63,650 nt of DNA from a bacterium (lineage in GTDB: Bacteria; Bacillota; Clostridia; UBA1381): NCBI GenBank assembly GCA_030536655.1, contig JAUNPN010000002.1, forward strand, positions 1-63,650. The letters run 5' to 3'. The position numbers and the translations under genes are program-made. Below the pieces are notes generated by a model. That model was not told the DNA's origin and made no database searches. It saw nothing but the letters and a program-made list of their open reading frames with translations. Positions 23,795-29,891 of this stretch are shown piece after piece (within the stretch, counting starts at the first letter, position 1; each line of letters opens with the position of its first letter).

Positions 23795-24298
23795 ATGAGA
23801 AATGATTTAAATGTAATAAAAAAATCAAAAGACTTATCGGGTATGATTTTCGAAATAACAGAAAGGTCTCCGAAAAAATTTAGATTTACTCTTGTATCTA
23901 AAATGCAGAATTTGTCTCTTGAAGTTATAAGTGAGTTATACATGGCAAATGATACTTTTGTTGATATGAAGATAATATCTGATATGAATAAAACAATAGA
24001 CTTTACAAAAAATATTAAATCTTTTAAAAGTGAGGAAGAAAGGATATATTACAGAAATAAAATATTTGAATTAAAAATGACAAGAGCTGTAAAAACAGAA
24101 GAAAGAGTATCAAGAAGATTGGAACATAGTTATGCGGCTCTTACAAAAATTAAGGAATTAGACTGGCTTATTACATTGTCAGCGCAAATGCAATGTATAA
24201 CAACAAAGCAGCAAGAGCGGCTGGCTATGCTTGTTTATGAGGTTAGAAGCCTTATAGGCGGTTTTATAAAGAGTGATAAGCGCAGATTTAATTATTAG
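23795..24298 (+). CDS. avd: DGR accessory protein (Avd-like four-helix bundle)
   Basis: The 167-residue, helix-rich basic protein has the four-helix-bundle pattern of DGR accessory proteins (segments NLSLEVISELYMAND, EERIYYRNKIFELKMTRAVK, ALTKIKELDWLITLSAQMQC, QQERLAMLVYEVRSLIGGF). Avd forms a pentamer that binds the reverse transcriptase and template RNA. The gene ends 12 bases before the template repeat, the usual place. Its base composition is clearly more AT-rich than neighbouring core genes. Identification rests on fold pattern plus context, which together are strong. Confidence 0.85.
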   Translation: MRNDLNVIKKSKDLSGMIFEITERSPKKFRFTLVSKMQNLSLEVISELYMANDTFVDMKIISDMNKTIDFTKNIKSFKSEEERIYYRNKIFELKMTRAVKTEERVSRRLEHSYAALTKIKELDWLITLSAQMQCITTKQQERLAMLVYEVRSLIGGFIKSDKRRFNY

Positions 24299-24310
24299 GG
24301 ATAGGGTTAT

Positions 24311-24423
24311 GGCTCCGTTCTCCGAATTCCAACAACAATAGTAACAATGCCCGTGTTGTCAACTCCGGCGGCAATGTTAACAACAATAATGCAAACAACA
24401 ATAACGTTGGTGTTCGTCCCGCT
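24311..24423 (+). repeat. DGR template repeat (TR)
   Basis: This 113-base segment matches the variable repeat at 26488-26600 with ten mismatches, every one at an adenine of this copy (A to G five times, A to T four times, A to C once). It holds 34 adenines, mostly as AAC/AAT Asn codons if read in the target frame. The last 18 bases (GTTGGTGTTCGTCCCGCT) match exactly and correspond to the initiation-of-mutagenic-homing end. The first differing non-adenine base lies immediately after it (C at 24424, T at 26601). Confidence 0.96.
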
Positions 24424-24477
24424 CTCTTTTTTAGTGAGATATTGTATTTAAGTAAATACATTCAGTACAAAGAGAGG

Positions 24478-24520: not shown

Positions 24521-24639
24521 TTTTCTGTGTCTGATAAACATACGATGCCGGAAAATATATTGTGTAAGTAGATGTTTTGCATTGAACACAAAATATATAA
24601 TCAGATTATCATATATAAGAAAACGGCAGGTGATATATA

Positions 24640-24774
24640 ATTAAGACAATAAGAAATCAATTTAATGATGTATGCAGCTTCCAAAACTTGCTTGAAGCAC
24701 ACAGAAAATCACGTTTGGGAAAAGGTGCAAAAACAGAAGTGCTTTTATTTGAATATGATTTGATGTGTATATAG
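24640..24774 (+). pseudogene. out-of-frame N-terminus of the DGR reverse transcriptase
   Basis: This frame encodes the conserved opening of DGR reverse transcriptases (VCSFQNLLEAHRKSRLGKGA, then KTEVLLFEYDLMCI and TAG). It starts after an in-frame TGA at 24631, with only ATT (24640) or ATA (24637) available as start behind GGCAGGTG, where an ATG would be expected. The main frame begins at 24765 one phase away, so a single missing base (or two extra) near 24765 breaks the gene. It could be a sequencing error, a real lesion or a recoding site. Confidence 0.75.
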
Positions 24775-25682
24775 CAGGTTTGAAGACGGAGCTTGAAAAC
24801 AAAACATACGTTATAGGGAAATATAAATCTTTTAAGATTTATGAACCAAAGGAAAGGGATATTATGGCGCTGTCATATCGTGACAGAGTTGTACAGCGCT
24901 GTTTGTGTGACAAGGTTCTGGAACCATATCTTGACGCAAGACTTGATTATGACAATGCGGCATGCAGAAAGGGAAAAGGAACACATTTTGCGTTAGACAG
25001 ACTGAAATATTTTATGAAGCAGGGATATAATAAATGGGGGAACGGTTATTACATATTAAAATGCGACATAAGAAAATATTTTTATAATATCAATCATAAT
25101 ATACTAAAGAAAAATCTTTATCAATATATAGAGGATAAGAATATAATTTGGTTGCTGGATATAATTATAGACAGTACAGACGGTGACGTGGGTTTACCTA
25201 TAGGTAATATGACAAGTCAGTGGTTTGCTGTATTTTATCTTGACAAGTTGGATAAATATATCAGAGAAAAACTGAAAATAAAGTTATATTCAAGGTATAT
25301 GGATGATTTTATACTTATTCATAATGATAAAGAGTATTTAAAGCAATGTTTGAAAAAAATAAGGTTATTTTTACAGGAAATGTTAGGACTTGAATTAAAT
25401 GAAAAGACCCAGATTTTTCCTGTTAAGAATGGAGTTGACTACTTAGGATTTCATTCATATCTTACAGAAACGGGGAGGGTGATAAGGAAAATACGAAAAA
25501 AGTCAAAAGCCGCAATGAAGCGGAAAATTAAAAAATTTAATATCGGGTATTCTGCACAAGAAATATCATATGAAAGAATCAGCCAAAGCATATCATCATG
25601 GGTGGGGCACGCGAAGCATGGCAACACCTACTATCTTAGAAAAAATATAATGAAACGATTAAAGTTAAGGGTTTGTAAGTGA
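24765..25682 (+). CDS. DGR-type reverse transcriptase (main frame)
   Basis: The 305-residue frame (GTG start) carries the catalytic core: YKSFKIYEPKERDIMALSYR, RKGKGTHFALDRL, KCDIRKYFYNINH (catalytic Asp about 101), IGNMTSQWFAVFYL (146-159) and SRYMDDFILI (YMDD at 178-181), then the DYLGFHSYL thumb segment. The IGxxxSQ motif in place of QGxxxSP is diagnostic of DGR reverse transcriptases, which copy the template repeat with adenine-specific errors. About 44 N-terminal residues lie in another frame upstream, so the intact enzyme would be near 349 residues. The GTG lacks a ribosome site. The target gene starts 33 bases downstream. Confidence 0.93.
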   Translation: MYIAGLKTELENKTYVIGKYKSFKIYEPKERDIMALSYRDRVVQRCLCDKVLEPYLDARLDYDNAACRKGKGTHFALDRLKYFMKQGYNKWGNGYYILKCDIRKYFYNINHNILKKNLYQYIEDKNIIWLLDIIIDSTDGDVGLPIGNMTSQWFAVFYLDKLDKYIREKLKIKLYSRYMDDFILIHNDKEYLKQCLKKIRLFLQEMLGLELNEKTQIFPVKNGVDYLGFHSYLTETGRVIRKIRKKSKAAMKRKIKKFNIGYSAQEISYERISQSISSWVGHAKHGNTYYLRKNIMKRLKLRVCK

Positions 25683-25715: not shown

Positions 25716-28700
25716 ATGAAAATGAAGAAAAAACTAATGAGCATACTGATAACGATGTCAATGCTTGTGACATTTCTGCCGGTAATATCGGTCGGTGCGT
25801 CTGCTGATATTAATATCGGTGAATACCTGCAAATGGGTACATATTACGGCGAACCGATATTATGGCGGTGCGTGGATATTGACGAAAACGGTCCGCTTAT
25901 GCTGAGCGATAAGATTATCAGTATCAAGCCGTTTGACGCTGCGGGGGATAACACAAGCGGCTCTCATGGCAGGGGATATGGTGATGGTTCTTATCGTAAA
26001 AGTTGGGGTTCAAATTATTGGGCAGATTCAAATATGCGCTGCTGGCTCAATTCCGACGCGTCCGCCGGGAATGTGAACTGGACGTGCGGCAATCCTCCGA
26101 CAGAGGATAAGGTATATTATGGATATAATGAATATGCAGATGAAGCGGGATTTTTGAGTAATTTTTCTCTGGGGGAAAGAAATGCGATAAAGCCGGTTAC
26201 GCAGAAGTCGCTTTTGGATGGTTATGAGCATGATTCAAATACTAGAAACGAAAATTATCATAGATATGATTCATATATAGAAGATGTAATGCAGAATTAC
26301 GATACTGCTTATTCAGAGCAGGTAACGGATTCTGTTTTTTTATTGGATGTAAAGCAGGCGCACAGAGTATACAGTAACGGAAATATTCTCGGAGAGGATT
26401 ATTATATAGGTGAGCCGACTGCGCAGGCTGTGGAAAAATCGGAATATAAGAGCTCATCATTGGGTATTGGAAATAAATGGTATTACTGGCTCCGTTCTCC
26501 GAGTTCCAGCAACAATAGTAGCTATGCCCGTGTTGTCAACTCCGGCGGCTATGTTAACAACAGTAGTGCCTACTACAATAACGTTGGTGTTCGTCCCGCT
26601 TTCTATTTAAATCAGTTATCTGCGCGCTTCACCTCCGGCAACGGCACGCTTGCGGCTCCGTATACCGTTGAGGGCAGCGGCAGCTATATCCCCGAGGTTA
26701 CGCCTGCACCTACACCGGAACCCACACCCACACCTACGCCTACGCCAACCATAAAGCCATATTTATTTGAAGTTGAAAAGTACCGCGCTAACGAGGTTAT
26801 GACGGGTTTATCCGGAAAAACGCTTTTCTCAATGGAAAATACTTATTTTGAGCAAACTCCGGGCAAGGTGTTGGTTGAAGCAGGTAAGAAAAATGGGTTA
26901 GATAAGTTAACTGAATTCTGGCGTGGTATGAATGATGAGGTAGGCGCGGTAAATGATATATCAAAAATTGCAGACCTTGCCTTTGAAGAAAAGGATATGT
27001 ATGAAGCGATTATTTGGGCTATATTTGAGTCGGGAGCGGATTTTAAACTGATAAGCAATATAGATTCGACAATAGCTGATAATGGTAAAAAAGTATATGA
27101 TTTCGTATCCGGGCAGATGAAATCAATGTATAATCTGAGTGTTGCGGATAAAGGAATGTATAACGCTCTTTCGGATAAACAGAAGCAGGAATGGAAAAAG
27201 CTTGTTACCGATTCATTTGAGTCGGAATATTCTTCATTAAGCAAGAGTATAGATATAGCGGATAAGATGGACTTATTCTTTGACGTAGCAAAGGATATAG
27301 AAGATCTTATAAACAGATGCGCGGCGTACTATGAATTGTCGTCAATGCAGGATTCGTTGAAACAGGTATTAAAGGAAATGTATCAGCAGTGTCCGTCTGA
27401 TGAAATTGCTATGAAGGCTGCTCTGCTTAATTGCGTAACTGTTATGAATTCAAATGAAGCAGCTGTTTCGGCAGAGATAGCGGCGTCTGTTGCAGGCACT
27501 ACAGGTAAGCGTTTTGGAATGATAGGCATGTCGGCGATGTGGTCAAGTGTGATGACAGGGGTCAAAAATGCTCACCCGGCTGTGGCAGTGTTTATGATGG
27601 CATATAAAAGCGGAACGTTTGTAAGCAATGCATTGTTTAACACTGATGCAATTGAAGAAGCATATCATAAGCTTGATGCTGTAATAAAAGTAGAGAATGT
27701 CGCACGCAGTGCATATTACAAGCTTAAAAAGCAATACATCAATGATGAGACAGAAACAAATGCGGCACATTATAACAGCGCTATTGATATTATGTTTAAT
27801 GCCAAAGATTATGACTGTGATACATCAATATCCTTTATAGATTCAGTAAGCAGTTCTGCGGCAGGAGCAGTAATCTCTTTATTGGGAGATAAAACAGCGG
27901 AAGAGAGAAAAAAATCAGTGAAGTCTATTCAGGATTCATCATATTCGATGTATGAGAGTATTCTTACAAGTTGGGTGTATCAGCTGGAAGAAGATGATAA
28001 GCAAACATATGAACAATATAAGTATGTTTTAGAGGAATCTGAAAAACGTATAAATAAGCGTTATCATATAGCGTGTCCTGTAGACGTATATGTATATGAT
28101 AAAATCGGACAAGAGGTTGCTTCTGTAGTAAACAACAAAACCTCGGTAAATGACAATTCAGATATCGTTATAACAGCATATAACGATGAAAAATTTGTTT
28201 ATCTTGATGATGACAAATATAGTCTGGAGTATAAAGCTACAGGCAACGGTACTATGGATATTACAATAGATGAATATAACGAAAAAGGAAAGACTGAAAG
28301 AACTGTAGGTTTTGATGATTTGTTAATTAGCAGAGGAGATGTATACAAATCGGAGGACAGCGGGGAGTATACGCTGACTTTGGACGGCAGCACAGTTGAG
28401 CCGGATTATGACACTGCGAAAAATAAAGCCGATGCAGTAAAAAAGCTGCTCGAAACAGACAGTGATATATCCACGGAAAAAATCACGAATGAATCAAATA
28501 ATGGTAAAATTGATCAAAACGATGATAATGTTCATCAAAATGATGATACAACGTCATTGAATCAATATCAAAAAGCAGCGATAAATTATGTTACGGAAAA
28601 CGCAATAATGACTGGTTACGATGACGGAACAATCAAACCATATAACAGCATAACGCGAGCAGAGTTTGCTGCTATGATGTGCCGACGCTTCGGATTTACG

Positions 28701-29891
28701 ACAAGCGAAAAATCCCTGTTTGATGATGTTCAGGATACTCATTGGGCTTCCTCATACATTCGTGCGTGTACTGATAAAGGAGCGATTAATGGAATAGGTG
28801 ATAATAAATTCAATCCGGACGGAATGGTTACATTTGAACAAGCAGTAAAAATTATAACAGTTCTCTGTGGCTATGAAAAGCAGGTCAGCATATATGAAAT
28901 GGGCGGATACCCGGATGGATATGTTTATGCGGCTGAGGAATATCATTTAACAGATGATATGACCGTTACTGTAAACGGACAAAATCTACCGAGAATTGAT
29001 GTTGCAATGCTCATATATAATTGCAGAAACAAACCGGAGGAAATATTAGGTGAAAACATTATAAAAAAATATGACTATATCGGCTGGTTTAATTATAATC
29101 ATCATCAGTTTGCTGAAATGGAGAAAGATGAAAAATGGGGAGTCATTGACTCCAAAGGGAACGAAGTGATAAGTCCTAAATATGATTATGTCGACATTCG
29201 CGGTGATGGAGAATATATCATAGTGAACAACGGAAAGAAAAGCGCACTCGTTGACGTGAACGGCAATATTGTGCTCGATTTTGACTATAGTATAATAGAC
29301 TTTTGTGATAACAATAAATATTTGACGGTTTGCTCAGCAGGAACTGGGAAAGACAGAACATGGGCATTAATAGATTATGAAGGCAGAGAAATAATTCCGG
29401 TTGGCAAGTATACAGAAATGAATTATTGCAGCGACAATTATATTGTTGTAGAATACGATGATGAATACGGTGTTATTGATATTAATGAAAATCAAGTTGT
29501 GCCATTTGATTTCAATTATATATTTCCGTTTTATGAGCAGAGAATGCTTCATGTAAGTGATGATGACGGAATGTATGGTATTGCAGATCTTAAGGGAAAT
29601 ATAATTATTGATACAGAATATGATGACATAGAAGGAGGTCGAGTATTGCCTGTATTTGCTCAAAAAAATGACAAATGGGGTAAGGTAGACAGAAATAATG
29701 AAATTGTAGTAGGTTTCAATTACGATTATGACCACGTTTATTCATATATTGATGGAGCTGGAAAATACTCCATCGCAGAAAAAAACGATGTTTTTTGTAT
29801 TATTGACAGTAACTTAGAAATGCTGACAGGGTATGACTTTGATGACATTGAGGATGCGGTCGATTATATACTTAAGAATCGTAATATGTAA
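25716..29891 (+). CDS. DGR target: secreted DUF6273-like, SLH and WG-repeat protein
   Basis: The 1391-residue protein has a signal peptide (1-30, MKMKKKLMSILITMSMLVTF), a DUF6273-like C-type-lectin-related domain (about 31-305, GEYLQMGTYYGEPILWRCVD) ending in the variable repeat (258-295, YYWLRSP through GVRPAFYLN), a Pro/Thr linker (about 328-349), a largely helical region (350-900), SLH modules (about 948-1075, with DDGTIKPYNSITRAEFAAMM) that anchor to the cell wall, and WG repeats (about 1137-1385, KWGVIDSKGNEVISPKYDY). GAGAAAGGAC precedes the ATG. The variable repeat is far from the C-terminus, unlike most DGR targets. Ligand unknown. Confidence 0.93.
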   Translation: MKMKKKLMSILITMSMLVTFLPVISVGASADINIGEYLQMGTYYGEPILWRCVDIDENGPLMLSDKIISIKPFDAAGDNTSGSHGRGYGDGSYRKSWGSNYWADSNMRCWLNSDASAGNVNWTCGNPPTEDKVYYGYNEYADEAGFLSNFSLGERNAIKPVTQKSLLDGYEHDSNTRNENYHRYDSYIEDVMQNYDTAYSEQVTDSVFLLDVKQAHRVYSNGNILGEDYYIGEPTAQAVEKSEYKSSSLGIGNKWYYWLRSPSSSNNSSYARVVNSGGYVNNSSAYYNNVGVRPAFYLNQLSARFTSGNGTLAAPYTVEGSGSYIPEVTPAPTPEPTPTPTPTPTIKPYLFEVEKYRANEVMTGLSGKTLFSMENTYFEQTPGKVLVEAGKKNGLDKLTEFWRGMNDEVGAVNDISKIADLAFEEKDMYEAIIWAIFESGADFKLISNIDSTIADNGKKVYDFVSGQMKSMYNLSVADKGMYNALSDKQKQEWKKLVTDSFESEYSSLSKSIDIADKMDLFFDVAKDIEDLINRCAAYYELSSMQDSLKQVLKEMYQQCPSDEIAMKAALLNCVTVMNSNEAAVSAEIAASVAGTTGKRFGMIGMSAMWSSVMTGVKNAHPAVAVFMMAYKSGTFVSNALFNTDAIEEAYHKLDAVIKVENVARSAYYKLKKQYINDETETNAAHYNSAIDIMFNAKDYDCDTSISFIDSVSSSAAGAVISLLGDKTAEERKKSVKSIQDSSYSMYESILTSWVYQLEEDDKQTYEQYKYVLEESEKRINKRYHIACPVDVYVYDKIGQEVASVVNNKTSVNDNSDIVITAYNDEKFVYLDDDKYSLEYKATGNGTMDITIDEYNEKGKTERTVGFDDLLISRGDVYKSEDSGEYTLTLDGSTVEPDYDTAKNKADAVKKLLETDSDISTEKITNESNNGKIDQNDDNVHQNDDTTSLNQYQKAAINYVTENAIMTGYDDGTIKPYNSITRAEFAAMMCRRFGFTTSEKSLFDDVQDTHWASSYIRACTDKGAINGIGDNKFNPDGMVTFEQAVKIITVLCGYEKQVSIYEMGGYPDGYVYAAEEYHLTDDMTVTVNGQNLPRIDVAMLIYNCRNKPEEILGENIIKKYDYIGWFNYNHHQFAEMEKDEKWGVIDSKGNEVISPKYDYVDIRGDGEYIIVNNGKKSALVDVNGNIVLDFDYSIIDFCDNNKYLTVCSAGTGKDRTWALIDYEGREIIPVGKYTEMNYCSDNYIVVEYDDEYGVIDINENQVVPFDFNYIFPFYEQRMLHVSDDDGMYGIADLKGNIIIDTEYDDIEGGRVLPVFAQKNDKWGKVDRNNEIVVGFNYDYDHVYSYIDGAGKYSIAEKNDVFCIIDSNLEMLTGYDFDDIEDAVDYILKNRNM
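26488..26600 (+). repeat. DGR variable repeat (VR)
   Basis: This copy of the template repeat lies in the target gene. Relative to the template, Asn codons became Ser at five places and Tyr at four, and one GCA became GCC (silent). Bases that are not adenine in the template are unchanged over all 113 positions. The encoded segment is RSPSSSNNSSYARVVNSGGY followed by VNNSSAYYNNVGVRPA. The substitutions fall in one exposed-loop-like region of the DUF6273-like domain. Confidence 0.96.

Follow-up and report, generated by a model that had tools for sequence, protein, structure and literature searches.

One template repeat and two DUF6273 targets: a chromosomal diversity-generating retroelement in a Clostridia genome

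Introduction

Do a short repeat and its copy inside the gene for a large exoprotein belong to a diversity-generating retroelement (DGR) and, if so, does such an element turn asparagine into serine and tyrosine in particular? The question is raised by a direct repeat of 133 nt (24310-24442 and 26487-26619, 88% identical) in the window, which is the whole stretch of 63,650 nt analyzed here (contig JAUNPN010000002.1 of assembly GCA_030536655.1, from a bacterium of the Clostridia lineage UBA1381). A sequence-only reading had proposed that the first copy is a template encoding an Asn-rich loop, which the second copy converts to Ser/Tyr. Lectin-like DUF6273 targets of DGRs with the variable repeat in a hairpin have already been published for phages, namely the tentaclins and others of gut phages (PMC10743442) and those of Faecalibacterium prophages (PMC11792537). 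All window features given below lie on the + strand.

The template repeat and its variable repeats

The template repeat (TR; 24310..24427) was delimited by repeat alignment and its core comprises 16 AAY codons and 34 adenines. Alignment to the TR places the variable repeat VR1 at 26487..26604; compared with the span read earlier, 26488-26600, the true start is one base upstream and the true end slightly further on, at about 26604. Base by base, VR1 departs from the TR at 10 of the 34 core adenines (5 A>G, 4 A>T and 1 A>C) and at 0 of 83 non-A positions, setting aside a C>T at the 3' edge (position 114) which is common to both variable repeats; if mismatches were random, ten of them would all fall on A with a probability of ~2e-6. 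The codon changes are AAT>AGT (three), AAC>AGC (two), AAT>TAT (two), AAC>TAC (two) and a silent GCA>GCC, exactly the five Asn-to-Ser changes, four Asn-to-Tyr changes and silent change that had been read from the sequence. Read in the target frame, the TR is as rich in AAC and AAT as was claimed (16 of its 28 loop codons are AAY), and the proposed design of A/C and A/T codons that avoids stops is borne out: 28 of 28 loop codons end in C or T in both VR1 and VR2, GCA being the sole loop codon of the TR that does not.

The variable repeat closes with an IMH-like invariant 3' end (GTTGGTGTTCGTCCCGCT..., 26583..26612), recognized by alignment and followed by TR-specific bases at which VR1 and VR2 agree with each other. 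By analogy with BPP-1, this end may act as the IMH, and the 3'-edge C>T resembles the difference between IMH and IMH* in known DGRs.

Searching the genome with the TR returned three sites only: the TR itself, VR1 and a second variable repeat, VR2 (C180:30625-30742, i.e. L003 1501-1618), on a contig unlinked to the cassette. VR2 lies in the gene of a 1451-aa DUF6273/CARDB exoprotein, flanked by genes for polynucleotide phosphorylase and for a valine tRNA ligase-like protein, the latter named from a reading of its sequence. Here 18 of 18 changes fall on adenines of the TR, split evenly into 6 T, 6 G and 6 C (chance of 18 random mismatches all landing on A, ~6e-12), and the AAY codons encode D, Y, T, I, G, P, H and L in addition to unchanged N. 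Outside the repeats, identity between the two target genes is 77%, dropping to 57% at third positions, whereas the non-A positions inside VR1 and VR2 equal the TR at all but one edge base, a contrast that calls for both loops to have been copied from the TR recently. A third DUF6273 gene of this genome (G000:C165, L010 6288-7343) carries no variable repeat; judged from sequence, its neighbors are VirB4-like and methylase genes, an arrangement reminiscent of a conjugative element.

These data bear on whether the TR could instead be a degenerate pseudogene fragment of the target that arose by ordinary gene duplication and divergence. The TR is indeed short and non-coding and flanks the target gene; however, the differences all fall on TR adenines in two independent targets, an RT gene and an Avd-like gene are adjacent, and more than 60 related variable repeats have the same pattern. 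The A-only pattern already refutes duplication, and we give it practically no credence.

The cassette and its chromosomal setting

The gene order of the cassette is Avd-like gene, TR, reverse transcriptase (RT) and target. Directly 5' of the TR, 23795..24298 encodes the Avd-like accessory protein (167 aa), whose profile matches fall under the curated cut-offs both for PF22296 bAvd (E=3.6e-9, 37.5 bits against a cut-off of 40) and for NCBIfam DivGenRetAVD (NF033474; E=1.9e-12). The main part of the RT, 305 aa from a GTG, lies at 24765..25682 (RVT_1, E=8e-19); it reads YMDD and GLPIGNMTSQ, the latter containing the DGR-type IGxxxSQ motif. Most related RTs adjoin TR/VR pairs. With differences confined to adenines at 10 of 10 positions in VR1 and 18 of 18 in VR2, and with Avd-like and RT genes adjoining the TR, the locus is a genuine DGR.

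On one flank of the cassette there is a sporulation-type sigma factor with STAS and kinase partners, and on the other NAD kinase, ArgR and a RecN-like protein, which places the cassette in a bacterial chromosome and not in a recognizable phage; viral contigs searched with the target domain gave no relative. The nearest relatives of the RT, 73% and 71% identical, come from Clostridia metagenome-assembled genomes labeled 'Lapin' (rabbit), and a gut origin of the host bacterium is therefore likely.

The reverse transcriptase and present activity

In comparison with the RTs L025 and L026, which are 71-73% identical and have open frames, one base is missing near 24760. Codon alignment with these two relatives shows the N-terminal ~46 residues of the RT in another frame, as a fragment at 24634..24774 (IIKTIRNQFNDVCSFQNLLEAHRKSRLGKGAKTEVLLFEYDLMCI*) that ends in a stop at 24772-24774. 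This fragment has no ATG, GTG or TTG, the possible starts being only ATA and ATT. The RT of the relative L025 likewise lacks an ATG, GTG or TTG start at the same place.

The split gene and the lack of a usual start in its N-terminal frame make present activity doubtful, or else point to an assembly error, and this copy of the DGR may be inactive now. If the frameshift is real, the loops would be fossils that evolve as ordinary genes, and VR1 and VR2 may record, in frozen form, activity of the recent past. Backup by a second RT of this kind is ruled out, as the genome search gave one match only, and this, like the base missing relative to two open homologs, speaks for a dead element. Against it, the remainder of the RT is open with YMDD intact, and the TR and both variable repeats are free of decay at non-A positions, so any loss of the RT must be very recent or the assembly wrong; the frameshift is possibly an error of short-read assembly or the mark of a mixed population. 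We put the dead element at slightly short of an even chance. It concerns present activity, not the kind of element, and is compatible with the DGR reading, to which we return below.

The target protein and its variable domain

The local target (25716..29891) is a protein of 1391 aa composed of a signal peptide, identified by reading the sequence, a DUF6273 domain, a Pro/Thr linker, a long middle region, SLH domains and WG repeats. Profile matches were obtained for SLH (4.7e-18), DUF6273 (2.1e-15) and WG_beta_rep (1.1e-14), the DUF6273 (PF19789) score of 57.5 bits standing above the Pfam gathering score of 23.5. VR1 corresponds to residues 258-297, inside the N-terminal DUF6273 domain (25806..26654).

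Thirty DUF6273 domains were aligned and modeling was then performed with AlphaFold2, model residue i corresponding to protein residue i+26. The model has a mean pLDDT of 93.2 and a pTM of 0.92, and its sole strong match to a solved structure is the N-terminal domain of the Thomasclavelia ramosa IgA protease (9qa6; Z 38.5, 1.3 A over 263 residues, 45% identity), the homologous segments being window positions 25794-26672 and 9qa6 residues 32-303. As the 9qa6 domain is described as a C-type-lectin-like core, the modeled domain is likewise C-type-lectin-like in fold. Weaker fold matches include Legionella Lcl (8q4e, Z 7.6), Treponema denticola TvpA (2y3c, Z 6.6) and formylglycine-generating enzymes.

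In the model, VR1 forms beta strands 244-248 and 253-258 with flanking loops, and the nine changed residues cluster in this one hairpin and its two loops: residues 237, 239 and 243 lie in the loop after strand 231-236, residue 244 begins strand 244-248, residues 253, 257 and 258 belong to strand 253-258, and residues 260 and 261 lie in the loop before strand 268-272. This accords with the clustering part of the expectation, voiced with the sequence-only reading, that the nine residues would share one exposed face; they also fall in the columns that vary most across the family. Mean column entropy is 3.28 bits at the 16 AAY positions and 1.73 at the remaining columns (P=4e-9). V248, G252, V254, A259, G265, R267 and P268, which are interspersed with the AAY positions or follow them, show stronger conservation. 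This conservation pattern supports exposure of the AAY positions.

Is the Ser/Tyr outcome special?

All nine substituted codons of VR1 encode Ser or Tyr. It could therefore be supposed that the system, or selection for binding, drives Asn to Ser/Tyr in this target specifically, which would give a natural binding loop made of two residues, comparable to synthetic Tyr/Ser antibody libraries. To judge this, related DGRs were collected, their TR/VR pairs being found mechanically and then read in frame. Across more than 60 pairs, 51% of A and 0.3-1.0% of C, G or T were changed, rates that are biased upward since the pooled set keeps only variable repeats with at least 9 A changes. Among 751 AAY codons in 63 variable repeats other than VR1 and VR2, the outcomes are Tyr 147 (20%), Asn 133, Asp 106 (14%), Ser 94 (13%), Gly 91 (12%) and ten further, rarer residues.

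The Ser+Tyr fraction of VR1 (9/9) is the highest among 65 variable repeats. Given the adenines hit, the probability under the related-VR spectrum that position 1 receives nothing but T and position 2 nothing but G is P=0.0016, or P=0.0037 for any one-letter choice, these values being approximate as the pooled loci are related to each other. VR1 was, however, chosen because it drew notice, and a P of ~0.002-0.004 is nothing out of the ordinary for the most extreme of 65 repeats. In the related repeats a single hit already often yields Tyr or Ser: together these residues make up 59% of single-hit codons, and 39% of all substituted AAY codons. They are also favored by the enzyme of BPP-1, whose bRT has an intrinsic bias on AAC (Tyr 14%, Ser 12%, Asp 10%); the Tyr/Ser skew is described as a misincorporation bias of the RT, and its use in binding is discussed (PMC12875486). 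Most directly, VR2 carries D, Y, T, I, G, P, H and L from the same TR. A Ser/Tyr drive on this target is accordingly a very improbable explanation, and as a codon-level program it is ruled out by the residues of VR2 and the pooled spectrum. The earlier claim of an Asn-to-Ser/Tyr conversion as such is thus not supported, with eight residues in VR2 and a Ser+Tyr share of 39% in the pool; it is a true description of one sample, VR1, and a weak basis for a rule.

The spectrum is in part enzymatic and may in part reflect selection, and we infer that the Ser/Tyr-only set of VR1 is a chance sample of an RT spectrum skewed toward Tyr, Ser, Asp and Gly, plus selection. In the related set, the Tyr yield from AAC and AAT does not differ (20% and 18%, P=0.51), unlike the reported behavior of bRT on AAU, and the position-2 spectrum does differ between AAC and AAT (P=5e-5); both P values are approximate for the reason given.

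Proposed mechanism

The evidence very strongly favors a chromosomal DGR that diversifies two DUF6273 targets from one TR. RNA of the TR would be copied by the error-prone RT together with Avd, with misincorporation opposite adenines, and the cDNA would then replace the matching stretch of the target genes, with the invariant 3' end as its guide. The TR would thereby place 16 Asn codons at probably exposed, naturally variable positions of the modeled DUF6273 domain, where AAY could sample up to 15 residues without a stop codon, and residues that keep the fold would be specified by codons without mutable effect, nearly all adenine-free, apart from the one silent A in GCA. The local target is predicted to be an exoprotein anchored to the cell wall through SLH, while the second, secreted DUF6273 protein encoded on the other contig would be diversified in trans. 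Display at the surface and binding of ligands are the presumed uses of the variable face.

Comparison with known systems

The locus shares with the tentaclins and other phage DUF6273 targets a C-type-lectin-like domain, a variable repeat predicted here, too, to form a surface beta-hairpin with flanking loops, AAC/AAT codons that can yield 15 residues, a pair of target genes served by each TR, and frequent aromatic and Ser replacements. It differs in that those DGRs and their targets reside in phage genomes, the tentaclins together with Ig-domain proteins, whereas this cassette is in a bacterial chromosome, SLH and WG repeats are found in its local target, and its second target is on another contig. 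The BPP-1 DGR (Mtd/bRT/Avd) likewise has A-only mutagenesis, AAY codons, a C-type-lectin-type target and Tyr, Ser and Asp favored from AAC (PMC12875486); its target is, however, a phage tail tip with the variable repeat at the C-terminus, while here a predicted bacterial surface protein carries it near the N-terminus. As in the TvpA DGR of T. denticola, the variable protein has a lectin fold and one TR can serve unlinked targets, but the fold subfamily is different (Z 6.6, 8% identity) and DUF6273 has an additional zinc-type site. Remote targets of DGRs are mentioned in PMC4891356 and PMC8144416, the latter a large survey whose approach was, by its own account, unable to detect them.

The closest comparison is to the IgA protease of Thomasclavelia ramosa, whose N-terminal domain is the same domain. 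The structure paper for 9qa6 describes a zinc site of D78, H90 and C126 in its C-type-lectin-like core, ligands whose likely counterparts in the window domain lie, on sequence grounds, in FDA, GSH and TCGNPP. Unlike the window target, this protein is a peptidase. In the literature searched, no clear function is assigned to the N-terminal domain and no link between IgA proteases and DGRs was found, nor does the structure paper mention DGRs.

Paralogs and wider meaning

DUF6273 paralogs without an RT mostly lack the NNY mark of past mutagenesis; an exception is L106 (G018:C17), whose VR-like loop is nearly all NNY and has NNY at 16 of 16 AAY columns. In L137 455-565 (G061:C39), a VR-like loop is nearly all NNY. 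No RT of this kind was found in the genomes of either (G018 and G061), and their loops are possibly orphan variable repeats. Elsewhere, a 4193-aa open frame (G045:C9:6442-16122) contains about nine tandem DUF6273 domains, in a family member where likewise no RT of this kind was found.

A broader proposal, which we regard as rather unlikely, is that Clostridia surface proteins, and IgA proteases as well, have in the DUF6273 hairpin a general face for binding ligands, that the host DGR diversifies several anchored proteins in trans to give a cell-surface repertoire, and that selection kept a minimal Ser/Tyr-rich loop in VR1.

The two variable repeats from one TR provide a clean control, in that the residue pattern of a single variable repeat should not be read as design. 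The analysis shows a bacterial chromosome carrying a DUF6273 DGR, with one TR acting on at least two unlinked exoproteins, and the solved homolog (9qa6) lets the variable face be mapped experimentally. For the gut IgA protease, whose N-terminal domain is unexplained, this offers a concrete hypothesis: the hairpin may be a binding site.
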